A stretch of 38,243 nucleotides of DNA from Clostridia bacterium (GTDB lineage Bacteria > Bacillota > Clostridia > Oscillospirales > CAG-272): the NCBI GenBank assembly GCA_017462485.1, contig JAFTRA010000037.1, positions 1 through 38,243 on the forward strand, written 5' to 3'. The first letter of the stretch is position 1. Every line of letters starts with the position of its first letter. Both the position numbers and the translations under genes were made by a program. Below are positions 7,895 to 23,400 of this stretch, piece after piece. Below the pieces are notes generated by a model, which had not been told where the DNA came from, made no database searches, and saw only the letters and a list, made by a program, of their open reading frames with translations.

Positions 7895-9382
7895 TTACAG
7901 TTGTTTCTTTTTCAAATCTTTTTTAAATTCTTCATTGATTTCAGGATATGCCGAGAGCATAGGCTCAACGTCCTTACCCGATTTTCTCTCGAAATAGTTC
8001 TTAGTGATTTTAGCAACGACGCCCGAGAGTGCAACGACTGCTATAAGGTTAGGAATAGCCATCAATGCGTTTGATATATCCGAAATGCTCCATACAAGCT
8101 CCGAAGTAAGCACGGAAGCGACAACTATGAGAGCTACGTATATGATTTTAAACGCAAGAACGCATATTTTCTGACCTTTTTTGCCGAGCTTATCAGCAAG
8201 AAATTCGACTGCCTTTTCACCGTAGTATGACCACGCAAGAATCGTTGTAAACGCAAAGATAGGCAAAATTACAGAGAATGCAACCGTTCCAAACACTCCG
8301 AAATTGTTTGAAAATGCGCCTATTGCCATAGCCGTATCGGATTCCTTTCCTGTTAATGCTGCCGTGTCGTAGGAGGTGAGAATCACAAATGCGACAAGGG
8401 TACATATAACAAAGGTATCAAGGAACACCTCAAATACTCCCCAAAGTCCCTGTTTTACGGGCTCACGGGTTTCTGATGCAGAGTGAGCTATTACCGACGA
8501 GCCAAGGCCAGCTTCGTTTGAGAATACGCCTCTTGCCATACCTTTTCTTATAATATCCGCCGTAGCATATCCGAAGATACCGCCCGCTGCGCTGCTGAAA
8601 TTGAACGCATGCTTGAAGATAAGAACGAACGCACCGGGAAGAGCCGTGATATTGATTATAATAATCAGAATTGCCATTGCAAAGAAGAGTATGGTCATAA
8701 ACGGAACGAGAACAGAAGCTACTTTTCCTATTCTCTTGATACCGCCGATTATTATTGCGGCTATAACGACGGCTATAATGCCACCGATAAGAAGCTTAAG
8801 CCAAGTGTCCTCATTTCCTACGGCGCTGGTTATGGTGCTAGTAATTTTATTAGTCTGAACGGAGCTCATACTGATTGCCGCAACCGCGCAGAATGCCGAT
8901 GCTATATAGCCGAGCCATTTGAGACCGAGACCGTGAGTTATGTAATACATAGCTCCGCCTGAGAAATCACCGTTTTCATCCTTTTTTCTATAATAAAGAC
9001 CGAGTACGTTTTCAGAATAATTCGTTACCATACCGAAGAATGCGGAAACCCACATCCAGAAAACAGCGCCCGGACCTCCGGTAAGTATCGCCGAGGTAAC
9101 GCCGATTATGTTACCAGTACCTATAGTACCCGAAATTGCCGCAGCAAAGGCTTCAAACTGCGAAATTGAATTTACGCTGTCTGCTTCCCTCTTCTTTCCT
9201 ATGCTTTTTACGGTGGGAATGATAGTAACCTTCAGCATATGGTTGAATTTTGCAACTTGGAGCGCTCTTAATTTTACCGTCATAAATATGCCGGTAGCGA
9301 GAATAAGAATGATTGTCGGCCAGCCCCATACGCCGAACTGATGGTTTGCGAGAAAGTCAACTACCTTGTTTAAAACTTCCAT
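7895..9382 (-). CDS. AGCS-family alanine/glycine:cation symporter
   Basis: This 495-residue polytopic membrane protein of the alanine or glycine:cation symporter family imports Gly/Ala with Na+ or H+. Family signatures are SQFEAFAAAISGTIGTGNI, GGPGAVFWMWVSAFFGM, FSGGAMYYITHGLG, RGMARGVFSNEAGLGSS (present as KGMARGVFSNEAGLGSS) and the YYGEKAVEFL segment near residue 400. About ten hydrophobic helices are visible and length is normal. The ATG follows AAAGGAAAG with 4-5 bases spacing. Its 5' leader contains a tandem glycine riboswitch and intrinsic terminators, so glycine is the likely physiological substrate and expression is probably glycine-controlled. The gene stands alone between that leader and the terminator at 7806-7854. 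Confidence 0.95.
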   Translation of the reverse strand: MEVLNKVVDFLANHQFGVWGWPTIILILATGIFMTVKLRALQVAKFNHMLKVTIIPTVKSIGKKREADSVNSISQFEAFAAAISGTIGTGNIIGVTSAILTGGPGAVFWMWVSAFFGMVTNYSENVLGLYYRKKDENGDFSGGAMYYITHGLGLKWLGYIASAFCAVAAISMSSVQTNKITSTITSAVGNEDTWLKLLIGGIIAVVIAAIIIGGIKRIGKVASVLVPFMTILFFAMAILIIIINITALPGAFVLIFKHAFNFSSAAGGIFGYATADIIRKGMARGVFSNEAGLGSSVIAHSASETREPVKQGLWGVFEVFLDTFVICTLVAFVILTSYDTAALTGKESDTAMAIGAFSNNFGVFGTVAFSVILPIFAFTTILAWSYYGEKAVEFLADKLGKKGQKICVLAFKIIYVALIVVASVLTSELVWSISDISNALMAIPNLIAVVALSGVVAKITKNYFERKSGKDVEPMLSAYPEINEEFKKDLKKKQL

Positions 9383-9521: not shown

Positions 9522-9587
9522 CGAAGCAAACCGCCAAAAAGGAACAATACACCACAGAGGTATAATTATCCCATATATAAAGCAGTT

Positions 9588-9780
9588 CTCCGTCCTTTTG
9601 CCTGAGAGATTGAAGCTTACGCCCCTTGCACCTTCGGCACCCGCGATAATATCGTGCGAACTTCTCCGGAGTGCTATCCGCCTGCAGTCCCTCGTCAAAG
9701 ACGACCTGAGAGTGTTACTCCTTCGGTAGCTGATAAAACAAAGTTTTTTCAGCTAACGGTTACCCGCTTTTCCTGCAAAC
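9588..9780 (-). promoter_or_regulatory. tandem glycine riboswitch (gcvT motif)
   Basis: The minus strand carries two glycine-type aptamers in series. Aptamer 1 (9681-9780) has a TTGCAG/CTGCAGG closing helix, GCGGGTAACCG, the core CCGAAGGAGTAACACTCTCA and GG. Aptamer 2 (9588-9671) has a CTCCGGAG/GGACGGAG closing helix, the core GCCGAAGGTGCAAGGGG and the 3' signature CAATCTCTCAGGCAAAAGGA. These signatures (CCGAAGG...CTCTCAGG) are diagnostic of the gcvT/glycine class. It precedes an AGCS symporter, a known target of this riboswitch class. Confidence 0.93.
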
Positions 9781-11753: not shown

Positions 11754-11782
11754 TTGCAAAAGTGAAAAAAGTATGTTATAAT
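11754..11782 (+). promoter_or_regulatory. sigma-A promoter of the ten-gene hydrogenase operon
   Basis: TTGCAA (11754-11759), 17 bases and an extended TGtTATAAT -10 (11777-11782) are followed by a leader of about 80 bases and then AGGAGGAC before the hydC ATG. No other convincing promoter or terminator is seen until 20274. Confidence 0.85.
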
Positions 11783-11871
11783 TATGTCAATGTGTATAAA
11801 AGCGGTTAAATATTCAAGCCGCGCGCATATGGCGCATACTATTCACAGAATTCTTAAGGAGGACAAAAAAT

Positions 11872-12366
11872 ATGCTCAAAAAACTTTCCAGCATCCCCTT
11901 CAATGGCACTCCCGAGCAGGAAGCAAAGCTCCAGGCTATAATCGATGCAAACAAGCACGATAAGAGTCGTCTTATGACAGTTATGCAGCAGGCTCAGGAC
12001 GTTTACGGTTACCTTCCCATTGAAGTACAGAACAAAATCGCAGAGGGTATGAACGTTCCGCTTGAAAAGGTTTACGGTGTTTCTACTTTCTACGCTCAGT
12101 TCTCTCTCTCTCCAAAAGGTAACTACCACATCGCAGTTTGCCTCGGTACTGCTTGCTACGTAAAGGGCTCCGGTCAGATTTACGACAAGCTTCAGGAGGT
12201 TCTCGGAATTGCGGGTGATGAATGCACTGCGGACAGAAAGTATTCTCTTACCGCTTCACGTTGCATAGGCGCTTGCGGTCTTGCTCCCGTTCTTACCGTT
12301 AACGAGGACGTTTACGGAAGACTTACGGTTGACGACGTTAAGGGCATTATTGCTAAGTACAACTGA
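11872..12366 (+). CDS. hydC: hydrogenase NuoE-like [2Fe-2S] subunit (HydC/HndA)
   Basis: This is the thioredoxin-fold [2Fe-2S] subunit of NAD(P)-linked electron-bifurcating-type [FeFe] hydrogenases, related to complex I NuoE (164 residues, normal length). An N-terminal helical region (1-75, with YGYLPIEVQNKIAEGMNVP and YGVSTFYAQF) precedes the cluster domain with ligands Cys90 and Cys95 (CLGTACYVKGS) and Cys131 and Cys135 (SRCIGACGLAPV). It passes electrons to or from the HydB flavoprotein. It is the first gene of the operon, with AGGAGG 8 bases before the ATG. The matching subunits (hndB, hydB, hydA) come only after six intervening signalling-type genes, an odd split. Confidence 0.95.
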   Translation: MLKKLSSIPFNGTPEQEAKLQAIIDANKHDKSRLMTVMQQAQDVYGYLPIEVQNKIAEGMNVPLEKVYGVSTFYAQFSLSPKGNYHIAVCLGTACYVKGSGQIYDKLQEVLGIAGDECTADRKYSLTASRCIGACGLAPVLTVNEDVYGRLTVDDVKGIIAKYN

Positions 12367-12414
12367 TTTTCATTCTATTAAATTTATCTTTAAACTTCGG
12401 TTAAGAGGGACGTT

Positions 12415-12771
12415 ATGAAAATTTCAAAGCTCCAAGAGTTACTCGGCGCAAAGGTTATTACGGGTGAAGAAAATCTCGATAAAGAGGTCTATTCCGCTTT
12501 CGGATGCGACCTTATGAGTGACGTTCTGGCTTGTGTTACAGACCAGGCAGTACTTCTCACGGGACTTGTCAACCCCCAGGTAATACGCACTGCTCTTATG
12601 ATGGACATGGTGTGTATAATCTTTGTTCGCTCAAAGGTTCCAAACGATGAAATGATAGCTCTCGCAAAGGAAAACGGCATCGTTATGATGAATACCGACA
12701 AAACGCTCTACAATACCTGCGGTATTTTGTATTCGAACGGACTTGTCGGCACGTCAGAGGTTGCGAAATGA
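12415..12771 (+). CDS. DRTGG-domain protein 1
   Basis: A stand-alone 118-residue DRTGG-domain protein. The alpha/beta pattern (KVITGEENLDKEVYSAFGCD, MSDVLACV, AVLLTGLVNPQVIRTALMMD, VCIIFVRSKVPNDEMIALAK, IVMMNTDKTLYNTCGILY) is typical of this fold, which is found fused to phosphotransacetylases and CBS proteins and as single-domain proteins beside [FeFe] hydrogenases. The biochemical role of the stand-alone form is not known; ligand or protein binding is likely. AGAGGGAC precedes the ATG. The last four bases overlap the next gene (ATGA), so translation is probably coupled to the ATPase. A second DRTGG protein is encoded at 14619-14945; the two are clearly diverged. Confidence 0.85.
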   Translation: MKISKLQELLGAKVITGEENLDKEVYSAFGCDLMSDVLACVTDQAVLLTGLVNPQVIRTALMMDMVCIIFVRSKVPNDEMIALAKENGIVMMNTDKTLYNTCGILYSNGLVGTSEVAK

Positions 12772-13190
12772 GTGATAAGTTAGTTTTTCGTTTCGACGTT
12801 CAGGGAGACGACTTTACCTCGGCAGGTCAGGCATCCGTTCAGGTTAAGAAAAATCTTCGCCAGCTCGGATTTGATACCGACACGATAAAGAGAGTCTCTA
12901 TTGCGATGTACGAGGGAGAAATTAACATGGTCATTCACGCAGGCGGAGGAATTGCCGAGGTCAGCGTATGCGAGGAATACATAGAGATAGTCCTCGAGGA
13001 CAAGGGCCCCGGTATAGCCGATATAGATAAGGCTATGCAAGCAGGATATTCCACCGCACCCGATAGTATCCGTTCTCTCGGATTCGGCGCGGGAATGGGA
13101 CTCCCCAATATGAAAAAGAACAGCGATAGCATGGAAATTACGTCAGAGGTTGGCGTAGGAACACGCATCGTTATGAGAGTTAACATCTGA
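12768..13190 (+). CDS. RsbW/RsbT-like GHKL ATPase (anti-sigma-type serine kinase)
   Basis: A single-domain GHKL ATPase of 140 residues of the HATPase_c_2 type used by anti-sigma factors and switch kinases such as RsbW, RsbT and SpoIIAB. The N-box is YEGEINMVIHAGGG, the G1 box EDKGPGIADID and the G2/lid region GAGMGLPNMKKNSDSMEI; the C-terminal VGVGTRIVMRV strand is also standard. It has no sensor or dimerisation domain. The start overlaps the stop of the preceding DRTGG gene (ATGA), and it is followed by a HydS-like gene, so it may phosphorylate a partner in response to that sensor (inference). No STAS-domain antagonist, the usual RsbW partner, is encoded in the window. Confidence 0.88.
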   Translation: MSDKLVFRFDVQGDDFTSAGQASVQVKKNLRQLGFDTDTIKRVSIAMYEGEINMVIHAGGGIAEVSVCEEYIEIVLEDKGPGIADIDKAMQAGYSTAPDSIRSLGFGAGMGLPNMKKNSDSMEITSEVGVGTRIVMRVNI

Positions 13191-13238
13191 GTTTGAATTC
13201 GCCTTTTCAAATTTTTCTCGGAAAGGATGGTCATAAAT

Positions 13239-14504
13239 ATGAATACTTATGAGCATTCCGTTCTTCTTGATGAAAGCAAATGCACAGGTTGCACTACGTG
13301 CCTGAGGCACTGTCCAACCGAGGCTATAAGAATTAAAAACGGCCGCGCCGTTATTGACCCCGAAAGATGTATCGACTGCGGTGCCTGCATCAGATACTGC
13401 CCGCAAAAAGCGAAAAGAGCTGTTTGCAGCAAGATGTCCGATATGGAGCGCTTCAAGTGGAAGATTGCTCTTCCCGCCCCTACTCTTTACGGTCAGTTTG
13501 ACAATCTTGACGACGTTGATTACGTTCTGAACGGTCTTTTAAAGATTGGCTTCGACGACGTTTTTGAGGTTGCGAAGGCTGCGGAACTGGTTACCGCCTA
13601 TACGAGAGTTTATCTTGAGACGGACGGTATTAAAAAGCCCGCGATAAGCTCGGCTTGCCCCGTTATAATGAGACTTATAAGCTTGCGTTTCCCTTCTCTT
13701 GCGGAACATATAATACATATGCTTCCTCCTATGGAGGTTGCCGCAAAGCTTGCAAGAAAAAGAGCTCTTGAAAATCATCCCGAATTAAAGCCGGAGGATA
13801 TAGGAGTTTGCTTTATCTCACCCTGCCCCGCAAAAGCAAGTTACGTTAAAAACGGATTTGCCGGATATAAGAGCGAGGTAGACGAGGTAATTTCTATAAG
13901 CGACGTTTATTTCCTGCTCATCGGAAAGATGAAAAAGGAAGACAATATTGAGATGCTATCCGAGTCCGGAAGAATCGGTATCGGCTGGGCTCGCTCAGGC
14001 GGTGAAGCAACGGCTATCTTCAACGAAGATTACCTTGCAGCTGACGGAATTGAGAACGTTATTCACGTGCTTGACCAGGTTGAAAACGGTAATATTCCAA
14101 AGCTTGACTTTATTGAGCTTAACGCCTGCACCGGCGGCTGCGTAGGCGGTGTTTTGACTATGCAAAACCCGTTTATCGCAAAAGCAAGACTTCAGACTCT
14201 TCGAAGATATCTCCCGGTATCTCAAAACACAATTTCCAAAGAAGAAAAATACATTTCGGCGGACTATCTTTTCGAAAATCTGCCGACCTATACGCCGTAT
14301 AATCGCCTTGGCGGCACTATTGCCGAATCAATGCGTATGATGGCGGATATTCAAAAACTGAAAGCCACTCTCCCGGGAATTGACTGCGGATCGTGCGGTG
14401 CGCCGACCTGCAGAGCCTTTGCGGAGGACGTGGTTAAGAAAACCGCTTGCCTTGAGGACTGCCGCATACAGCAGTTCTGGTCCTCGAAGGACAGCAAGGA
14501 CTAA
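13239..14504 (+). CDS. sensory-type [FeFe]-hydrogenase homologue (HydS-like)
   Basis: A 421-residue protein with two N-terminal [4Fe-4S] motifs (Cys15-18-21-25 and Cys44-47-50-54), a [FeFe]-hydrogenase H-domain and a C-terminal four-Cys Fe-S module (Cys383, 386, 391, 408; CGSCGAPTC). The H-cluster loops are divergent but keep ligand cysteines: L1 is SSACP (Cys140), L2 is SPCPAK (Cys196) and L3 is NACTGGCVGG (Cys297, 301). The proton-relay Cys that precedes the L1 ligand in catalytic enzymes is Ala139. That substitution is, to my knowledge, characteristic of putative sensory hydrogenases (HydS), which turn over H2 very slowly. There is no PAS domain, unlike some HydS. ATG at 13239 is preferred to the ATG at 13227, which would overlap the ribosome binding site GGAAAGGA. 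Its neighbours, a kinase-like ATPase and a PHP protein, fit a signalling role. Confidence 0.9.
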   Translation: MNTYEHSVLLDESKCTGCTTCLRHCPTEAIRIKNGRAVIDPERCIDCGACIRYCPQKAKRAVCSKMSDMERFKWKIALPAPTLYGQFDNLDDVDYVLNGLLKIGFDDVFEVAKAAELVTAYTRVYLETDGIKKPAISSACPVIMRLISLRFPSLAEHIIHMLPPMEVAAKLARKRALENHPELKPEDIGVCFISPCPAKASYVKNGFAGYKSEVDEVISISDVYFLLIGKMKKEDNIEMLSESGRIGIGWARSGGEATAIFNEDYLAADGIENVIHVLDQVENGNIPKLDFIELNACTGGCVGGVLTMQNPFIAKARLQTLRRYLPVSQNTISKEEKYISADYLFENLPTYTPYNRLGGTIAESMRMMADIQKLKATLPGIDCGSCGAPTCRAFAEDVVKKTACLEDCRIQQFWSSKDSKD

Positions 14505-14618
14505 GTTTGAAAATGAATTTTCAAATTATCGTTTGCGTCTTTTGTCCCGTGACGGATTGAACGAGCTTCCTTACGGAAACGAAGGCAAACGACCTCTTAG
14601 AAAGGATTGGTAGTCAAT

Positions 14619-14945
14619 ATGACCGTAGAAACTTTTGCAAAAGAATTCGACTTCAAGGTCTTATCCCTGCCCTCACCCGAAAAAGAGGTTACGGGGGCAT
14701 ACGTAGGCGACCTTTTAAGCTGGGTTATGGGAAGAGCAAATTCGGGCGATGTATGGATAACTATTATGTCTAACGTTAATATTGCGGCGGTAGCGACGCT
14801 TGCCGATACGGCGTGCATCTTGCTCGCGGAGGGGGTTGTACTCGACGACGAGGTGCTCTCGGTTGCAAAGAACAAGGGCATAAACGTTTTATCAAGCGAA
14901 AAGTCAGCTTACAGTATCGCAAAAATGATATCGGACACAGTTTAA
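14619..14945 (+). CDS. DRTGG-domain protein 2
   Basis: A second single-domain DRTGG protein (108 residues), diverged from the one at 12415-12771. The family pattern is clear: TGAYVGDLLSWVMGRA, SGDVWITIMSNVNIAAVATL, ACILLAEGVVLDDEVLSVAK, INVLSSEKSAYSIA. Function is unknown; in related operons these small proteins sit beside PHP and ATPase genes. The ATG at 14619 is chosen because AAAGGA lies 12 bases before it; an in-frame TTG four codons upstream falls on the ribosome binding site. The stop overlaps the start of the PHP gene (TAATG), so they are translationally coupled. Interaction of the two DRTGG proteins with each other or with the Fe-S sensor is inference only. Confidence 0.85.
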   Translation: MTVETFAKEFDFKVLSLPSPEKEVTGAYVGDLLSWVMGRANSGDVWITIMSNVNIAAVATLADTACILLAEGVVLDDEVLSVAKNKGINVLSSEKSAYSIAKMISDTV

Positions 14946-15676
14946 TGAACCGTTTTTACTACGATTTACACATACATTCCTGTTTATCTCCCTGCGGTGA
15001 TGAAGACAATACACCGAATAATATCGCCGGTATGGCGTCGCTTTCCGAGCTTGATATTGTCGCTCTCACCGACCATAACAGCGCAAAAAACTGCCCGGCT
15101 TTCTTTGCCGCAGCCGAAAAATACGGCATTATACCAATAGCGGGTATGGAGCTTACGACGTCCGAGGATATTCACGTGGTTTGCCTCTTTGAAAACCTCG
15201 AGGACGCGCTCGAATTTGACAAATACGTTGAAAATAACAGACTTCGTATTAAGAATAAGCCCGAGTTCTTCGGAGAGCAGCTTATACTTGACGGTGAGGA
15301 TAACGTTATAGGAAAGGAAGAAAATCTTCTGACAAACGCTACCTTCATTTCGATAGACGACGTTTTTTCGCGTGTCAAAGAGTTCGGCGGCTTCGCTTAC
15401 CCTGCTCATATCGACCGGGATTCGTACAGCATAACGGCTGTTCTCGGTACTGTTCCGCCCGATACGGAATTCAACTACTTTGAGCTTCACGACGGTGAAA
15501 GACGAGGCGAGTTTTCCGAAAGGTACGGAATAGAAAAGGACAAATTTATAATCAGCTCGGACGCTCATTATCTTTCGCAATTCAAGGATAAGGAAAATTT
15601 CTTTTTACTTGACTGCGATAAGGACTCTGCCGACCTGGTAAGAAAAAAGCTGTTTGAATTGTTAAGGAGACATTAG
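14945..15676 (+). CDS. PHP-domain phosphoesterase
   Basis: A 243-residue stand-alone PHP (polymerase and histidinol phosphatase) protein, a metal-dependent phosphoesterase in a distorted TIM barrel. Metal-binding motifs in order are YYDLHIHSCLSPCGD (residues 4-18), ALTDHNSAKN (~41-50), AGMELTT (~66-72), AYPAHIDRDS (~153-162), ELHDG and SSDAHYL (~207-213). The substrate is unknown; beside kinase-like ATPases a protein-phosphatase or nucleotide-phosphatase role is attractive but unproven. Translation starts at the ATG overlapping the previous stop. A longer in-frame opening from 14813 exists, but the added residues are Arg/Gly-rich, overlap the DRTGG2 gene and are not PHP-like. Confidence 0.9.
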   Translation: MNRFYYDLHIHSCLSPCGDEDNTPNNIAGMASLSELDIVALTDHNSAKNCPAFFAAAEKYGIIPIAGMELTTSEDIHVVCLFENLEDALEFDKYVENNRLRIKNKPEFFGEQLILDGEDNVIGKEENLLTNATFISIDDVFSRVKEFGGFAYPAHIDRDSYSITAVLGTVPPDTEFNYFELHDGERRGEFSERYGIEKDKFIISSDAHYLSQFKDKENFFLLDCDKDSADLVRKKLFELLRRH

Positions 15677-15677
15677 T

Positions 15678-16229
15678 ATGAAAGAAATATCGCTTAACAT
15701 TCTTGATATAGCCGAAAATTCGGTGAAGGCGAAGGCAACGCTCGTTGAAATCACCGTAACCGAAACGGCTTACACGCTGACGCTTACCGTTAAGGACGAC
15801 GGTACGGGAATGACGAAGGACGTGCTTTTATCGGTTACAAACCCCTTTTACACTACGAGGACAACCCGTAAGGTAGGAATGGGAATACCGCTCTTGCAGT
15901 TTGCCGCTGAGCAGACGGGCGGAAATATTAAAATCGAGTCGAAGCACTTTTCTGAATACCCTGATGAGCATGGAACGACGGTTACCGCGCTGTTTTATAA
16001 AAATCACATTGACTTCACACCGCTTGGAGACGTAATTTCCTCCGTCACCACGCTTATACAGGGGCATCCCGAAACGGATTTTCTCTATAAGCACTCTTTC
16101 TCCGACAAGACGGTTATGCTTGACACAAGAGAGATACGCGCGGTGCTTGAGGGCGTTCCCTTGGATACCTTTGAGGTACTTATATGGATAAGGGATAATC
16201 TTAGGGAGCAATATGATGAAAACCAATAA
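15678..16229 (+). CDS. histidine-kinase-type GHKL ATPase without HisKA domain
   Basis: A 183-residue protein. Residues 1-115 are a GHKL ATP-binding domain with N-box LNILDIAENSVKA, G1 VKDDGTGM, F-box-like NPFYTTRTTRKVGMGIPLLQ (Gly-rich lid) and a G-T-T-V-T-A-L-F strand. Residues 116-183 (HIDFTPLGDVISSV... LEGVPLDTFEVLIWIRDNL) form a C-terminal extension that I do not recognise outside this gene type. No membrane segment, sensor domain or phosphoacceptor His region is present, so it would need partners to act as a kinase. AAGGAGACATTAGT precedes the ATG, 1 base after the PHP stop. It is the second GHKL ATPase in the operon; the two are different subfamilies. Confidence 0.85.
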   Translation: MKEISLNILDIAENSVKAKATLVEITVTETAYTLTLTVKDDGTGMTKDVLLSVTNPFYTTRTTRKVGMGIPLLQFAAEQTGGNIKIESKHFSEYPDEHGTTVTALFYKNHIDFTPLGDVISSVTTLIQGHPETDFLYKHSFSDKTVMLDTREIRAVLEGVPLDTFEVLIWIRDNLREQYDENQ

Positions 16230-16264
16230 AAATTAAAATACACACTTTAAGAAAGGAAGAAAAA

Positions 16265-16633
16265 ATGAAATCTTTGGCTGAATTGCAAGCAATCAAAGAC
16301 AGAATGAAGAGCAAGGTTGCTCTTCGTGAGGGTTACGGCGAAATTCGCGTTGTAGTCGGTATGGCTACCTGCGGTATAGCTGCCGGCGCTCGCCCTGTTC
16401 TCAATACACTTGTTGAAGAGGTAAACAACGCAGGTCTTTACGAAAAGGTAAGCGTTTCCCAGACAGGTTGTATCGGTTTCTGCCAGCTCGAGCCCATCGT
16501 TGAGGTAATCGAGGCAGGAAAAGAAAAGGTTACTTATGTAAAAATGACTCCCGAAAAGGCAAAGGAAGTCGTTGAAAAACACTTAAAGGGTGGCAAAGTT
16601 GTTACGGAATACACCGTAGCAGGTGCCAACTAA
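16265..16633 (+). CDS. hndB: HndB-like (2Fe-2S) ferredoxin-domain hydrogenase subunit
   Basis: A thioredoxin-like ferredoxin of 122 residues corresponding to HndB of the hndABCD NADP-reducing hydrogenase type and equivalent subunits of bifurcating hydrogenases. The core is VVVGMATCGIAAGARPVL (Cys36) and SQTGCIGFCQLEPIVEV (Cys69, Cys73). Only three cysteines are visible where NuoE-type domains have four, so either the cluster uses another ligand or this subunit is structural. AAAGGAAG precedes the ATG; the hydB ribosome binding site starts right after the stop. It probably docks onto HydB. Confidence 0.9.
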   Translation: MKSLAELQAIKDRMKSKVALREGYGEIRVVVGMATCGIAAGARPVLNTLVEEVNNAGLYEKVSVSQTGCIGFCQLEPIVEVIEAGKEKVTYVKMTPEKAKEVVEKHLKGGKVVTEYTVAGAN

Positions 16634-16646
16634 AAGGAGGTAAAGT

Positions 16647-18473
16647 ATGATTCGTTCACACGTACTTATTTGTGGCGGTACAGGCTGTACCTCTTCGGGA
16701 AGCTTGACGCTCCAGAAGGCATTCAATGAGAACATTGAGGCTTTCGGTCTCGCAGAGGAAGTAAAGCTTGTTCAGACGGGCTGCTTTGGTCTTTGCGCAC
16801 TTGGTCCTATCGTTATCATCTATCCCGACGGTACCTTCTACAGCCGCGTTACCGCTGATGACGTCAAGGAAATCGTTGAAGAGCATCTTCTCAAGGGAAG
16901 AATCGTAGAGCGCCTTGTATATAGAGACGAGGTTGCTGATGAAACGGTTAAAAAGGCTGCTTCCGAGCTTTCCCTTTCCGACACTAATTTCTATAAGTCC
17001 CAGAAGCGTATAGTTCTTCGTAACTGCGGTGTTATCAACCCCGACGATATCGAGGAATACATAGCTATGGACGGTTATGCAGCTCTCGGTAAGGTTCTTA
17101 CAGAAATGACTCCCGAGGAAGTTATCAAGGTAGTTTCCGATTCCGGTCTTCGCGGAAGAGGAGGCGGAGGCTTCCCCACAGGTCGTAAATGGGCTCTTTG
17201 CGCTCCCAACAAGGCACCCCAGAAATACGTTGTATGTAACGCAGACGAGGGCGACCCCGGAGCATTTATGGACCGTTCCATTCTTGAGGGCGACCCCCAC
17301 TGTATCATTGAGGCTATGACTATCTGCGGTTACTCGGTTGGAGCTACCAAGGGTTACGTTTACGTAAGAGCCGAGTATCCTATCGCAGTTACCCGTCTCC
17401 AGCACGCTATCGATCAGGCAAAGGAATACGGACTTCTCGGTAAGAACATCTTCGGTTCAGGCTTCGACTTCGACCTCGAAATCAAGCTCGGCGCAGGCGC
17501 ATTCGTTTGCGGTGAAGAGACTGCTCTTATGACCTCTATTGAGGGTAACAGAGGCGAGCCTCGTCCCCGTCCTCCCTATCCTGCAGTTAAGGGTCTTTTC
17601 AACTCTCCCACTGTTGAGAACAACGTTGAGACCTTCGCTAATATTCCTCAGATTATCCTTAACGGCGCTGAATGGTTTAGCTCCATGGGTACCGAAAAAT
17701 CCAAGGGTACAAAGGTATTCGCGCTCGGCGGTAAGATTCAGCACACCGGTCTCGTTGAGATTCCTATGGGTGTTACGCTTGATACTATTATTAACGAAAT
17801 CGGCGGCGGTATCCCCAACGGCAAGAAGTTCAAGGCTGCTCAGACGGGCGGTCCTTCCGGTGGATGTATCCCCGCAAGCCTTATCAATACCGAGGTTGAC
17901 TACGATAACCTCGTTTCTATCGGCTGTATGATGGGATCTGGCGGTCTTATCGTTATGGACGAAGACAACTGTATGGTTGATATGGCTAAATTCTTCCTTG
18001 AATTTACCGTTGACGAATCCTGCGGTAAGTGCACTCCCTGCCGTGTTGGTACAAAGAGACTTCTTGAGCTCCTTGACAAAATCACCCAGGGCAACGGCAC
18101 TCTTGAGGATATCGACAGACTCGAAGAGCTTTGCAACTACATAAAGCAGAACTCTCTTTGCGGTCTCGGTCAGACTGCTCCCAACCCTGTTCTCGCAACC
18201 CTTAAGTTCTTCCGCGATGAGTATATCGCTCACGTTGTTGACAAGGTTTGCCCCGCAGGCGTATGTAAGGGACTTATCAACTACTCTATCGATAAAGATA
18301 AATGTATCGGCTGCGGCAAGTGCGCTAAGAACTGCCCCGCTGACGCTATCACCAGAACCGATTACATCGCTCCCGGCCACAAGCTCGCTTCCTTCACTAT
18401 CGACACCTCGAAGTGCGTTAAGTGCGGTGCTTGCGTTGCAGGCTGTAAGTTCGATGCAATTTCCAAGAAGTAA
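16647..18473 (+). CDS. hydB: hydrogenase NuoF-like flavoprotein subunit (HydB/HndC)
   Basis: The FMN/NAD(P)H-binding subunit where electron bifurcation is thought to occur (608 residues, full length). Domains are an N-terminal thioredoxin-like [2Fe-2S] (ICGGTGCTSSGS and TGCFGLCALGP), a NuoF core with GLRGRGGGGFPTGRKW (FMN/NADH site), NADEGDPGAFMDR, GAGAFVCGEETALMTSIEG and PTVENNVET, the NuoF [4Fe-4S] motif ESCGKCTPCRVGTKRLLE...SLCGLG, and a C-terminal pair of [4Fe-4S] motifs CIGCGKCAKNC and CVKCGACVAGC. A perfect AAAGGAGG lies 6 bases before the ATG, consistent with very high expression, as is its strongly biased codon use. It is adjacent to hydA. Confidence 0.97.
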   Translation: MIRSHVLICGGTGCTSSGSLTLQKAFNENIEAFGLAEEVKLVQTGCFGLCALGPIVIIYPDGTFYSRVTADDVKEIVEEHLLKGRIVERLVYRDEVADETVKKAASELSLSDTNFYKSQKRIVLRNCGVINPDDIEEYIAMDGYAALGKVLTEMTPEEVIKVVSDSGLRGRGGGGFPTGRKWALCAPNKAPQKYVVCNADEGDPGAFMDRSILEGDPHCIIEAMTICGYSVGATKGYVYVRAEYPIAVTRLQHAIDQAKEYGLLGKNIFGSGFDFDLEIKLGAGAFVCGEETALMTSIEGNRGEPRPRPPYPAVKGLFNSPTVENNVETFANIPQIILNGAEWFSSMGTEKSKGTKVFALGGKIQHTGLVEIPMGVTLDTIINEIGGGIPNGKKFKAAQTGGPSGGCIPASLINTEVDYDNLVSIGCMMGSGGLIVMDEDNCMVDMAKFFLEFTVDESCGKCTPCRVGTKRLLELLDKITQGNGTLEDIDRLEELCNYIKQNSLCGLGQTAPNPVLATLKFFRDEYIAHVVDKVCPAGVCKGLINYSIDKDKCIGCGKCAKNCPADAITRTDYIAPGHKLASFTIDTSKCVKCGACVAGCKFDAISKK

Positions 18474-18491
18474 TGAAAGGAGTGCGATGTC

Positions 18492-20243
18492 ATGGAAATG
18501 TTAAACGTTAAAGTAAACGGTATCGCTGTCTCTGTACCTAAGGGTTCTACAATTCTTGAAGCAGCACGCGCAGCAGGTGTGGAAATCCCCACCCTCTGCT
18601 TTATGAAAGAAAAGAACGAAATCGGTGCTTGCCGTATTTGCGTTGTTGAAGCTACCGGCGCTCGCGGACTCGTTACCGCTTGCGTATATCCCGTTACCGA
18701 GGGTATGGAAATCCAGACTAATACCCAGAAGGTAAGAGAGGCTCGTAAGACTACTCTTGAGCTTATCCTCTCTACTCACGACCAGAACTGCCTCTCCTGC
18801 GCTCGTTCCACCAACTGCGAGCTCCAGAAGCTCTGCCTTGAATACGGTGTTGATTCGAAGGCATTCGGCGGTTTCAAGCCCACCTACGAGCTTGACTACT
18901 CTACTCCCCACCTTGTAAGAGATAACAACAAGTGTATCCTTTGCCGTAGATGCGTTGCCGTATGTAACGAACAGTTCGTATCCGTTATCGGCGCTAACAA
19001 CAGAGGTATTGACACTTGCATAGGTCAGCCCTTCGATATCTCTCTTGCTGAAACTCCCTGTATCTCCTGCGGTCAGTGTACCGTAGTTTGTCCTACAGGC
19101 GCTCTCGTTGAGCGTGACGATACCGATAAGGTTTGGGCAGCTCTCGCTGATCCTACAAAGCACGTAGTAGTTCAGACCGCTCCCTCTATCAGAGCTACTC
19201 TTGGTGAGTGCTTCGGTATGGAAATCGGTACTAACGTTGAGGGCAAGATGGTTGCAGCTCTTCGCCGTCTTGGCTTTGAGAAGGTATTCGATACAAATAC
19301 CGCTGCTGACTTCACTATCGTTGAAGAGGCTACCGAGCTTCTTGAAAGAGTTAAGAACGGCGGAACTCTTCCTATGATTACATCCTGCTCACCCGGATGG
19401 GTTAAGTTCTGCGAGCTTTACTATCCCGATATGATAAACCACCTCTCCTCCTGCAAGTCTCCTCAGCAGATGGGCGGCGCTCTTATCAAGACCTATTGGG
19501 CTGATAAGATGGGTTATGATCCTAAGGACGTCTTTGTTGTTTCCATTATGCCTTGTACCGCTAAGAAGTTCGAGGTTGGAAGAGACGATATGTCCGCTGC
19601 AGGAAACGGCATAGCTGACGTTGACGTTGCTCTTACGACTCGTGAGCTTGCAAGAATGATAAGCCGCGCAGGCCTTAAGTTCACTTCTCTTCCCGACGAG
19701 GAATTTGATACAGCTCTCGGTGTTGACACCGGTGCAGCGGTTATCTTCGGCGCTACGGGAGGCGTTATGGAGGCTGCTCTTCGTACGGCTAACGACGTTC
19801 TTACCGGCAAGGATAACAAGGAGATTGAGTTCCACGAGGTTCGCGGAACTGACGGTCTCAAGGAAGCTACGTACAATATTGCAGGTATGGAAATCAAGGT
19901 TGCGGTTGCTTCGGGCGCTGCTAACGCTAAGCTCGTTATGGACAAGATTGCCAAGGGCGAAGCTGATTGGACCTTCGTTGAAATCATGGGATGCCCCGGC
20001 GGTTGTGTAAACGGCGGCGGTCAGCCTATCCAGCCTCAGCACGTTCGTGATACCGTTGACCTCAAGGCTGTAAGAGCAAAGGCTCTTTACGACCAGGACG
20101 AGAAGATGGAAATGCGTAAGTCTCATCTCAACCCCATCATTAAGGAAGTTTACGATAACTACTTCAAGGGCGGTTACGGTTGCCATGCGGCTCACCACGC
20201 GCTTCACACATCTTACGTTGCAAGAAAGAAGTACAACGTATAA
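18492..20243 (+). CDS. hydA: [FeFe] hydrogenase catalytic subunit (HydA/HndD)
   Basis: The H2-producing or -oxidising subunit (583 residues). Cluster motifs are N-terminal [2Fe-2S] (Cys36, 47, 50, 64), His-ligated [4Fe-4S] (His96, Cys100, 103, 109), two ferredoxin-type [4Fe-4S] (Cys148-151-154-158 and Cys190-193-196-200), then the H-domain with L1 TSCSPGW (297-303), L2 MPCTAKKFE (353-361) and L3 EIMGCPGGCVNGGGQP (Cys501, 505), and a small-subunit-like tail ending HTSYVARKKY. L1 has Ser300 where many hydrogenases have the [4Fe-4S]H ligand Cys; I recall the same TSCSPGW form in other NAD(P)-linked enzymes. GGAG lies 9 bases before ATG 18492. Together with hydC/hndB/hydB it forms an NAD(P)H- and ferredoxin-dependent hydrogenase that disposes of fermentation electrons. 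Confidence 0.97.
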   Translation: MEMLNVKVNGIAVSVPKGSTILEAARAAGVEIPTLCFMKEKNEIGACRICVVEATGARGLVTACVYPVTEGMEIQTNTQKVREARKTTLELILSTHDQNCLSCARSTNCELQKLCLEYGVDSKAFGGFKPTYELDYSTPHLVRDNNKCILCRRCVAVCNEQFVSVIGANNRGIDTCIGQPFDISLAETPCISCGQCTVVCPTGALVERDDTDKVWAALADPTKHVVVQTAPSIRATLGECFGMEIGTNVEGKMVAALRRLGFEKVFDTNTAADFTIVEEATELLERVKNGGTLPMITSCSPGWVKFCELYYPDMINHLSSCKSPQQMGGALIKTYWADKMGYDPKDVFVVSIMPCTAKKFEVGRDDMSAAGNGIADVDVALTTRELARMISRAGLKFTSLPDEEFDTALGVDTGAAVIFGATGGVMEAALRTANDVLTGKDNKEIEFHEVRGTDGLKEATYNIAGMEIKVAVASGAANAKLVMDKIAKGEADWTFVEIMGCPGGCVNGGGQPIQPQHVRDTVDLKAVRAKALYDQDEKMEMRKSHLNPIIKEVYDNYFKGGYGCHAAHHALHTSYVARKKYNV

Positions 20244-20409: not shown

Positions 20410-20451
20410 TTCCTGCGAGGGTAGTAGGTCCTCGCAGGAATTTTTTGTTTT
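20410..20451 (+). terminator. intrinsic terminator 2 of the hydrogenase operon
   Basis: TTCCTGCGAGG (20410-20420) pairs with CCTCGCAGGAA (20430-20440), followed by TTTTTTGTTTT. A smaller GAGGA/TCCTC hairpin of similar sequence precedes it (20375-20391). The T-tract is on the plus strand, so this backs up terminator 1 against read-through into the convergent gene. Confidence 0.88.
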
Positions 20452-20485: not shown

Positions 20486-23400
20486 TTAGCCTTCGGATTC
20501 GTCGGTGGTCTTTCCGCGAGCCGCGTCAACGTACTCCTTATATTCGTCGTAGGTTTCTACTGCGGGATGCGAGCCCTTGTCAACACCGTATTTATCTTTA
20601 TAGATTTCCTGTGTTTCCTCGTTGCAGAAGATAGGTCTTGTATTTACGAAGGTAAGCCAGTCGCTGTTCTCTGCGGCAAATGCGCTTACAGCCTCGTTGA
20701 TAACCACAGTGCCCTTAAAGGAATCTACGTACAAGCTACACTCGATGCTGCAGTAATAAACCTTAGCATTGGGGAGCTTTTCGTGGTAGAGAGTAAGGAG
20801 AGCTATAATTCTCTCGCCTATCTCGGCAGGAGTATATGGGCTTTCGTTATAAATATCGTTAAATCCAATATGAACGATTATTTCAGATGGATTCAATGGG
20901 TATACCAAACGCTCGGAGCACATAAACCACTCATCTACCTTAGAGCCGCCAATACCGAGAAGATAGGTGTTCTCACCTGCGTAGTCGGTATAGAAATCTT
21001 CCCAATAATACTCGGTGAAGTAGGAATCTCCTACAAAAATAGTAGCGTTTTCCCCAACCTTGGAAAGAGTTCCGCCCTCTGCTTCATAATCAAGGCAGTG
21101 CTTTTCTATAAAGTTCTTGCTGTACGTCGAAACCTTTACGGTTTTTACTACCTTGTGATTAGGTGTTGTTACTGTAACGGTTACTTCGGTATCTGCATCG
21201 AATGTACCCTTTGCAAATATCATTCCGTTTTCAACCGTTACTCGAGAGTCAGAGGTAGTAATTACAGGCTCTGCCGTATAATCAGAGTTAGTGAACGTTA
21301 CCTTGAATTCTCCGCCGCTATAATTTGTATAAATCAATTCGGGTGCTTCTACAATCATATTACCGTAATCATTGATCTTTCCTTTAGAATCTCCCGTCTT
21401 ATACGCCTCGGAAACGTCGGAGTAAATACGGAGAGCTTCTGCAAGGTTGAAGTGATCCTTACCTATGGAATCCTTAACGTAGGTATCAAGGCTATATTTG
21501 CCCTCTACCGAAACGTCCTCACCGTTTAGAGTTCCGCTAACGGTAATGTTAAGAACAGTTCCGAAGTTGTAAGCCTTCATACCGTTTACGGTAATTGAGC
21601 AATTATCCGTGCTTGCTGCTTCTTTCTCAAAGTTATTGAATTCTTTGGTTATATTATTGCTTGAATAGGTTACCTTTACGATACCCTTAAAGCCTTCCCT
21701 AACGTTAATTACAAACGCAGGACTCGGTGAGAGGCAAATGCTGACGCCATCAACTACCGAAGAGAGTCCCGAGCTTTCAATATACTCGTCGTATTCGGAG
21801 CTTGCGTTGTAATACGTGGTGATATACTCGTAATCGGTAAGAATAGCGCTTACGGTATCATCAACCGCGCCATCATTGAAGTACTTGTTTGCTTCGTTTG
21901 AGTAATTTAACATATAATATACGAGCGCTTTGTCGGCAGCGGCGTACAAATTATCCGTATCAAGAATTACCTCTGCGTAGTCGGTAATAGAGAGTGTTAC
22001 TGTAGCAGTTCCGCTGACAGTCTTACCGCCAACCGTTTCGGAAACGTCAAGAGTAAACGTTACCGCTTCGGAAGCCTTATCGCATTCAACTATTATCGAC
22101 TCTGACTTGAGATACGTGCCGTTTAGCACCTTGGTAAGTGCCTTGCCGTTAACCGTTACAAGACCGTCGTATTTTGAGGGAATATAGAGATTTAAGCCGA
22201 AATCAGCGTAAAGCGAGACGTTAACGCGCAGTCCGCTTATACTTACTTCGCCCGTATAGCAATTCGCATCGGCATTATAAACGTAAGTTCCCTCTTTGGA
22301 TACGCCCTTTGCGTATTCCTCGGTATAATTACCGTTATGAATAAGAGTGAACGCTGTGGAGGTATAATCCGCAAGCTTATAGCCGACTACGTTACCGCCT
22401 ACGGCGTAAGGCACGCTTGCGGTAGCGCCGCCAAGTCCGTTATAGGTTACGTTTACAACGTCATCCACGGGAACAGTCTTCACCGCGGGAGAGCCAAGCT
22501 TGAAGTTTGTATTCTGCGTCGTGCTTTCTATACCGATGGTCCAAGCGCCAAGCGTAACCGCAGCATTTCTTTCGTCGGAAACAGTTTTTATCTTATGAAC
22601 GGTAAGAGCTTCAACCCCCTCGCCAAGAGACATAGGTACGTTCCAGCTTGCGTTTACGTAGCCCTCGGGAGCCGCGTAGGCATTAAGATTTGATACGGTA
22701 TCCTTAACTATTACGTTTCCGTAGCTTTCACCCGTCGCCTTGATATTTCCGTGAATTACACAGTTATTAAAGGTTACGGTATTCTTTGATGAAACGTTTC
22801 TGAAAAGGTCACCGTTTGCACTTACGATTGTGCAGTTATTAAATGTGGTGTTGTAGTAGCTCTTTGAATTGGCTTCGGTGTTCGAGCCGAAGAGATAACC
22901 CACCGTAACTATTATCTTTGCGTCTGTTACTGTTGTGGTAGTAGAAATATCGCCCGTTTCCTCTGAGTTCAGAGAGTAAATCATAGCGTTAAGCGCGTTT
23001 CCGTGCTTGCCGATGCTTCTTATGAGCGTGCAGCCCTTGATATTAGCCTCGGAATTTACAGCATCACCGTGAAGTCGAAGCACAGCGGTAGCGTTTACGG
23101 TAAGGTTTTCACCGTATTTATACTCTGTGCCGCCAAGGGTAACGTCACCGACGTTCAATTTAGCGTTGGGCTTATCTATTCTGAAGAGGTCGCCTCCGTA
23201 TCTTGTATAATCGGATTTCGAATTGTTTCCTATATCAAGAAGATATCCGCCCGGACGTGAGGAATAAACGTTATAGGTGTCATACTGACCTAAATTAAAC
23301 GTACCGTAGGATTTTGCGTTATCGTCGTTACTTCTCCAGTCGGAGATAAGCGTGTGACCGTTCAAATCGAAGTTATATACCTCTTCCGCCTCTGAGGTCT

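Follow-up and report, generated by a model that had tools for sequence, protein, structure and literature searches.

The window analyzed here, i.e., the whole 38,243-nt stretch of contig JAFTRA010000037.1 from a Clostridia bacterium of the gut (assembly GCA_017462485.1, forward strand), carries a bifurcating-type [FeFe]-hydrogenase operon that also encodes a set of predicted signaling proteins. According to open reading frame (ORF) calls and Pfam and NCBIfam searches, ten genes occupy positions 11872-20243 on a single strand in the order hydC-D1-W-S-D2-PHP-HK-hndB-hydB-hydA; the five genes from D1 to PHP, with the putative sensory hydrogenase S at their center, are the main subject of this report. 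The initial annotation of this DNA had described the same order, along with stop and start codons that overlap as ATGA (D1/W) and TAATG (D2/PHP), and both are borne out by the ORFs, domains, and sequence. The features of the locus are as follows.

11754-11782, + strand: promoter-like site TTGCAA-17-TATAAT before hydC, called from a 10/12 consensus match only
11872-12366, + strand: hydC, NuoE-like 2Fe-2S subunit (2Fe-2S_thioredx, PF01257, 165.6 bits)
12415-12771, + strand: D1, free-standing DRTGG protein (PF07085, 28.4 bits, cut-off 25.2)
12768-13190, + strand: W, SpoIIAB/RsbW-type GHKL protein (HATPase_c_2; TIGR01925 match)
13239-14504, + strand: S, putative sensory [FeFe]-hydrogenase, HydS (PF02906, Fe_hyd_lg_C; PF04060, C-terminal iron-sulfur domain)
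14505-14618, + strand: S-D2 spacer with predicted hairpins (folding and comparison with near relatives)
14619-14945, + strand: D2, second DRTGG protein (PF07085, 32.4 bits)
14945-15676, + strand: PHP, PHP-family protein (PF02811, 42.2 bits)
15678-16229, + strand: HK, small GHKL ATPase (HATPase_c, PF02518, 50.3 bits) without HisKA
16265-16633, + strand: hndB-like 2Fe-2S thioredoxin-fold protein (PF01257, 27.4 bits)
16647-18473, + strand: hydB, NuoF-like hydrogenase subunit (TIGR01959, 495.6 bits, below the equivalog cut-off of 558.65)
18492-20243, + strand: hydA, group A catalytic subunit (NF040763, NADH-dependent, group A6, 866.7 bits, cut-off 765)
20410-20440, + strand: terminator-like hairpin 3' of hydA (13 pairs, then a T run), ahead of a convergent ORF

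The ORF of S opens at 13227; ribosome-site spacing favors 13239 as the start, and by the same token makes 14619 likelier than 14607 as the start of D2. S and HydA are the only Fe_hyd_lg_C matches in the whole source genome at an E value of 0.001.

Distribution and separability of the cassette

HydS relatives scoring above 250 bits were found in 77 of the 147 genomes of the order (source genome included) and there were many more among the matches listed for a phylum sample of 398 genomes. We chose 100 loci, 40 from the order and 60 from the phylum sample, preferring those away from contig ends; each has a score of more than 290 bits, and one genome contributed two of them. Cassette genes were counted within 4.5 kb on the strand of S, and HK, hydB, and hydA within 9 kb on either strand. 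W is present in 99 of these loci, D2 in 96, D1 and PHP in 91 each, and all five genes in 87. In these 87, D1 and W precede S and D2 and PHP follow it on its strand, a regularity beyond chance. The genes are mostly separated by 30 nt or less, or overlap: this is the case for 78/86 D1-W, 68/100 W-S, 67/78 S-D2, and 71/75 D2-PHP junctions. Matches to HK are found in 91 loci, hydB in 85, and hydA in 81, but three of the HK matches (L085, L097, and L103) are to kinases of 904 to 920 aa, with HisKA shown for L097, so that the small HK is present in 88. D1-W-S-D2-PHP is a separable five-gene cassette, and the synteny in other genomes by which the initial annotation had proposed to check its module is largely conserved.

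The embedding of this set within the hydrogenase operon, also part of the initial annotation, holds locally. The arrangement of the window, hydC-D1-W-S-D2-PHP-HK, is seen in 18 of the 100 loci; in the commonest order, D1-W-S-D2-PHP-hydC-HK (44 loci), the cassette precedes hydC and HK, and in 11 loci all five genes are present with no hydB within 9 kb (L060, L061, L065, L069, L072, L077, L112, L125, L126, L128, and L131), the last five of which (L112, L125, L126, L128, and L131) keep HK. The hydrogenase genes are divergent in L062, L073, L080, L120, L122, and L124. A check for HydA (E value of 1e-150) in the genomes of 10 of the 11 hydB-less cassettes placed it elsewhere in 6 of them and found none in 4. 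An Fe_hyd_lg_C search of 8 genomes gave a single match each, S itself, in G010, G318, G174, G368, G439, and G520. We therefore rejected the idea that the cassette needs an adjoining hydrogenase, on the strength of the hydB-less cassettes and the S-only genomes. A smaller set is found in family f106 (L085, L097, and L103), where the genes for a large sensor kinase and a response regulator precede a W-S pair that lacks D1, D2, and PHP; in L085 and L103, S is followed by an H-domain protein, which in L085 is fused to a chemotaxis (MCP) domain.

Among named genomes, at least 576 relatives were confirmed, of which the best 80 were taken. These are mostly metagenome-assembled genomes (MAGs) titled Clostridia, Ruminococcaceae, or Oscillospiraceae, many of them from ruminant gut, and they are close relatives that do not count as independent; some of these genomes also contributed to the 100-locus set. 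The 66 loci that were long enough to test all encode the five genes (66/66). Six of the named loci come from MAGs with actinobacterial titles (Coriobacteriales, Atopobiaceae, and actinobacterium; L159, L162, L164, L170, L172, and L174). Their S proteins are 68 to 72% identical to that of the window, and the cassette is seen up to the limits of the contigs, except that D2 was not called in L172; this would reflect either transfer or mis-binning.

Genomes without S were represented by 47 of the 70 order genomes that lack a strong S match, and 5 positive controls were added. Strong D1 was detected in 1 of the 47 (G104) versus 5/5 controls, and in G104 the D1-W pair sits at a contig end, where S may be cut off. 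Weak D matches in four more S-less genomes (G087, G021, G108, and G049) are D2-type according to separate D1 and D2 profiles, which sorted 164/164 known cases, most of these being the cases from which the profiles had been built. The D1 profile misses some D2 genes, as seen in L234. In L227 (divergently), L229, L232, and L234, the last two representing one family (f7), a D2-type gene adjoins the hydC and HK genes of a hyd operon in which S, W, D1, and PHP have no strong match. The stray D2-type gene of G021 (L231:6418-6729, - strand) lies on a contig other than that of hydABC and adjoins a 618-aa ORF. HK scores above 120 bits in 11 of the 47 genomes, all 11 with HydA, and stands alongside hyd genes in 9 of them, as seen in 8 fetched loci and, for G030, from the coordinates; the other two, G094 and G114, carry HK and HydA on separate contigs. 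HydA scores above 500 bits in 32 of the 47, and 21 of these 32 have no strong HK. From these counts and loci, D1 goes with S, and a hydrogenase operon without S can retain HK and D2. HK is common to the cassette and the hydrogenase operon, but not to all such operons. Of the six-gene module described in the initial annotation, the five-gene set stands; we rejected HK as its fixed sixth member because it also stands with hyd genes in genomes without a strong S. In L096, L099, L112, and L119, HK is followed on its 3' side by a gene for a protein of 141 to 158 aa, which is RseC/MucC-like in L112.

Predicted properties of the probable sensor and its candidate partners

Group D (M2e) sensory hydrogenases are marked by two N-terminal 4Fe-4S motifs, an H-domain, and a C-terminal Cx2Cx4Cx16C motif, with no PAS domain (PMC8163306); they have lost C299, mostly in favor of Ala, and have Ser/Thr for M353 (PMC8163306, PMC10407848), and their alternative proton path is E252-E289-S249-D265 (PMC10407848). 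S of the window retains the cluster cysteines (C387, C390, C395, and C412, plus the N-terminal ones), has no PAS domain detectable by Pfam at an E value of 0.01, and carries A143 at the position of CpI C299 and S198 at that of M353. Its proton-path residues, E260, E297, S257, and D273, were assigned from the alignment and a constant offset of 8, HydS of Thermoanaerobacter mathranii (TamHydS) itself being outside the alignment. Over 101 S rows, E297 is found in all 101, Glu at 260 and Asp at 273 in 97 each, and Ala143 in 73, with Ser at that position in another 23. In a 30-row tree, which included no named group D sequence, a branch with 99/97 support separates HydA and other H-domain rows from S; two stray long-branch rows among the S rows are probably not kin. 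The assignment of S as a group D (M2e) HydS-type sensory hydrogenase is well supported by these sequence marks, and S probably senses hydrogen. The initial annotation, which saw a HydS-like protein that keeps the H-cluster ligands but has Ala at the proton-relay position, and took it for a sensor, was right about Ala143 and the cluster cysteines and finds support for the sensor-type identity in the group D residues.

TamHydS reacts with H2 in vitro (PMC8163306, PMC10407848), and H2 is reported to alter its secondary structure (PMC13104023). The same paper describes no reduction of the TamHydS C-terminal cluster by H2, so that the sensing step is matched only in part, and physiological H2 sensing by TamHydS is itself described as putative (PMC13104023).

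The cassettes of family f59 stand out in this respect. S is the sole [FeFe] protein in 5/5 f59 genomes (G318, G174, G368, G439, and G520; 84 to 99% complete), HydF was found in none of these five and was present in G010 and the control G043, and all three f59 S proteins that were read (L125, L128, and L131) have Gln for the proton-relay Glu; a fourth such Gln is found in L135 (family f70). This looks like a cassette that persisted after the loss of H2 chemistry, with a possible H-cluster-free descendant of S. These observations, together with the C-terminal cluster of TamHydS that H2 does not reduce, would fit a reading of S as a sensor of redox state or iron-sulfur, or as an enzyme of low activity, with a historical link to H2. 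We consider this quite improbable, given that the proton-path Glu260 is kept in the window and in 97 of the 101 rows and Glu297 in all 101, that TamHydS is reactive toward H2 in vitro, and that G010 (L065), in which S is also the sole [FeFe] protein, nonetheless has both HydF and Glu260.

The best NCBIfam match of W is SpoIIAB (TIGR01925; E value of 1.5e-17, 63.8 bits versus the equivalog cut-off of 135), and among solved structures it matches SpoIIAB crystal chains (E value of 7e-07, or about 1e-06). The boxes of GHKL serine kinases, E/N, DxGxG, and GxGxG, are all present: the N, G1, and G2 boxes of W comprise E49, N53, D78, G80, G82, G107, G109, and G111, conserved at 98 to 100%, with E49 and the listed glycines at 100% and N53 at 98%. 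As judged from these residues, W carries a complete SpoIIAB-type kinase site. In D1, Ser35 is invariant (86/86 rows), as is Ser38 of D2 (78/78 rows; counted from 14607); the two align with each other and are candidate acceptors.

Natural fusions and gene linkage point to the likely partners. D1 and W are fused in 5 loci (L089, L092, L095, L098, and L108; families f68 and f119), PHP and HK in 3 (L120, L122, and L124; f43), and S and D2 in L104 only (570 aa, f64); no fusions were found among the 80 named loci. These fusions suggest physical pairs. Covariation across 153 loci (Neff 96), in which phylogeny was not removed, gives a weak hint only: column pairs that co-vary (z>4) are most frequent for D1-W (0.81%) and W-S (0.53%), compared to 0.09 to 0.34% for other protein pairs and 0.43% within proteins. 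A joint alignment of D1, W, and fusion proteins was of poor quality and was set aside. Because of the fusions and the tight linkage, D1 is the probable partner of W. D2 is a possible partner of S and a possible link to HK and hydABC.

The SpoIIAB-SpoIIAA-SpoIIE and RsbW-RsbV-RsbU systems have known roles in partner switching. W resembles their kinases in that it is a GHKL protein on its own with intact kinase boxes, SpoIIAB being its nearest counterpart, whereas the cassette offers DRTGG and PHP proteins in place of STAS, sigma factor, and PP2C components. Pfam and NCBIfam show no STAS protein, sigma factor, or response regulator in the module (STAS and sigma factors were not searched genome-wide), no PP2C phosphatase in the module, and no recognized DNA-binding domain in the five cassette proteins. 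On the first three of these absences the same searches uphold the initial description, as they do on the PHP protein and on the two dissimilar GHKL ATPases of the module. W could still be an anti-sigma factor in a classical partner switch, with an unlinked STAS antagonist and sigma factor and transcription as the output; the closeness of W to SpoIIAB fits this, as do the four HATPase_c_2 matches, W among them, and the one SpoIIE-domain protein of the source genome. However, that SpoIIE match is a 782-aa frame on another contig, no STAS protein or sigma factor was seen among the annotated neighbors (the annotation covered 10 of the 30 largest neighbor clusters and single genes), and the fusions and tight linkage indicate D1 as the partner of W. 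We regard the classical arrangement as unlikely.

The HxH, DH, E, H, H, and DxH residues of PHP, which we take to be metal ligands, are kept in 97 to 100% of 91 rows; phmmer found no match for PHP among solved structures. PHP enzymes that dephosphorylate proteins are known. HK matched only sensor-kinase chains among solved structures by phmmer, and its C-terminal part is conserved in the HK alignment. It lacks HisKA, and Pfam detects no receiver domain in the module, so that both marks of a two-component system are missing. HK has Asp10 (96%) at a position where kinase N-boxes usually have Glu. This residue, the presence of HK within hydC-HK-hndB-hydB-hydA where there is no S, and the D2-type gene that stays with HK in 4 loci would be consistent with an assembly or activity module, in which HK and W would be chaperone-like or allosteric GHKL ATPases acting on HydABC and S would gauge H2 or redox state with no phospho-signaling. 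W, however, has the kinase-type Glu49 at 100%, the cassette is present in genomes without HydABC, and some hydABC operons (L237 and L238) do without HK, so that we give this explanation little credence.

Possible signal route and comparison with known systems

From the sequences, fusions, and gene neighborhoods, we infer a tentative wiring of the cassette proteins. H2 would act on the H-cluster of S and change its shape; S would work together with D2, and the state of the S-D2 pair would gate W. As a SpoIIAB-type kinase, W would act with its cognate partner D1, forming a partner-switching pair with a DRTGG protein in the place of the STAS protein. PHP would undo the modification or remove a bound ligand, and D2 and HK would relay the result to HydABC, whose activity or assembly appears a likelier target than transcription. 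The outcome would be H2 production matched to H2 pressure. This S-centered, separable H2-sensing cassette within a bifurcating-type hydrogenase operon, wired from S-D2 to W-D1, with reset by PHP and output through D2 and HK, is the reading we favor, and we would put its chances slightly below even.

Several observations weigh against it. The S-D2 link rests on a single fusion and shows low covariation (0.13%), and D1 and PHP are each absent from 9 of the 100 loci. HydABC cannot be the only target of the cassette, because some genomes with the cassette have no [FeFe]-hydrogenase besides S. Nor is HK bound to hydABC, being found in 11 of the 32 HydA-bearing S-less genomes and missing from the S-less hydABC loci L237 and L238; the S-less genomes were searched for D1, HK, and HydA. 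The invariant Ser/Thr residues of D1 and D2 may be structural: a weak match (E value of 0.019) pairs Thr49-Gly50 of D1 with Thr-Gly in AF_1212, a DRTGG protein of unrelated kind, although Ser35 has no Ser counterpart there.

A bolder version would see here a new class of gas-signaling circuit, in which S-D2 gates W, D1 replaces STAS, a PHP phosphatase resets the system, and HK provides the output, the f59 circuit reading redox state instead; we hold this to be doubtful. The initial annotation had also raised a new circuit. The pairing of a sensor with a hydrogenase and a kinase is not new: it has been published that group D sensor genes precede those of bifurcating hydrogenases, a kinase gene often separating the two (PMC3561251, PMC8163306), and the pairing has been in print since 2012 (PMC3561251, citing earlier work). 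Table 6 of that paper includes the M2e sensors Cthe_0335, Csac_1857, TTE0887, Teth39_1463, and Cphy_3798, all upstream of bifurcating hydrogenases, and in Clostridium thermocellum, phosphatases, kinases, and PAS sensors are reported upstream of bifurcating hydrogenase genes (PMC3492117). As in the window, a small number of genes separate the sensor of the M2e loci from the bifurcating set downstream of it, and a histidine/serine kinase is often among them, but the available part of PMC3561251 does not resolve the intervening genes into DRTGG, SpoIIAB-type, PHP, and HK proteins and mentions no fusions or stand-alone cassettes. We found no prior description of the D1-W-S-D2-PHP set in a literature search that was thin on subscription papers. 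Four points look new: the gene content of the cassette, the fact that it is separable, the fusions, and the state of family f59.

TamHydS is similar to S in lacking PAS, in its Cx2Cx4Cx16C motif, in Ala at C299 and Ser at M353, in the E252/E289/S249/D265 path, and in being encoded near a bifurcating hydrogenase. It differs in having Leu at M497, where S of the window has Asn299, and, as far as the available descriptions go, the window differs from its locus in the defined full D1-W-S-D2-PHP set and in hydC at the front. Group C type sensors, to which TmHydS is assigned in PMC8163306, share with S the sensor-type H-domain and C-terminal Fe-S domain; their signaling domains are fused, whereas those of the window are separate, and S is apart in the tree. 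Fused H-domain proteins are encoded in L104 (778 aa, with PAS and HisKA) and L085 (637 aa, with MCP). The DRTGG proteins AF_1212 (2ioj), CBS-DRTGG pyrophosphatase (3l31), and HPr kinase (1ko7) are remote relatives of D1 and D2, which differ from them as free-standing proteins that come in a pair and are linked with a GHKL kinase and a hydrogenase.

A 2026 paper on TamHydS calls the identification of interaction partners critical (PMC13104023). The present analysis names W, D1, and D2, followed by PHP and HK, as candidate signal partners of HydS, a list short enough to be tested. If the favored wiring is true, it would provide a route by which gut Clostridia may tune their H2 output and would mean that a kinase of the partner-switch kind is able to function where STAS and sigma partners are absent.

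Transcription signals, RNA features, and flanking genes

The single promoter that the initial annotation assigned to all ten genes corresponds to the promoter-like consensus match at 11754-11782. A gene family whose one annotated member is Rex, the NADH-sensing repressor, is found either near the cassette or after hydA in 13 of 101 loci (L078, L087, L089, L092, L095, L098, L108, L119, L127, L130, L132, L133, and L137), among which are all five D1-W fusion loci. The source genome has two Rex-type matches. No Rex operator was found near the hydC promoter, and the whole window has 2 matches with 3 mismatches versus 4.04 expected by chance. The region before hydC gives no Rfam match at the gathering score, and the fold of the hydC leader is not unusual (z of -1.26).

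The S-D2 gap of the window is 114 nt, which is unusual: a check of 16 near relatives placed the beginning of the D2 domain at -11 to +20 nt from the S stop codon. The predicted fold of 14505-14618 has an energy of -29.2 kcal/mol (z of -1.97), and 10 of 200 shuffled sequences were equally stable. Two 27-nt AT-rich palindromic stretches, 78% identical to each other, lie at the stop codons of W (13187-13213) and S (14501-14527) and thus flank S.

Elsewhere in the window, a glycine riboswitch (RF00504, 53.7 bits) is located at 9580-9679 on the - strand, ahead of a transporter-like ORF of 495 aa (7895-9382, - strand). The ORF convergent to hydA (20486-26338, - strand) encodes 1950 aa and begins with a signal-peptide-like stretch.

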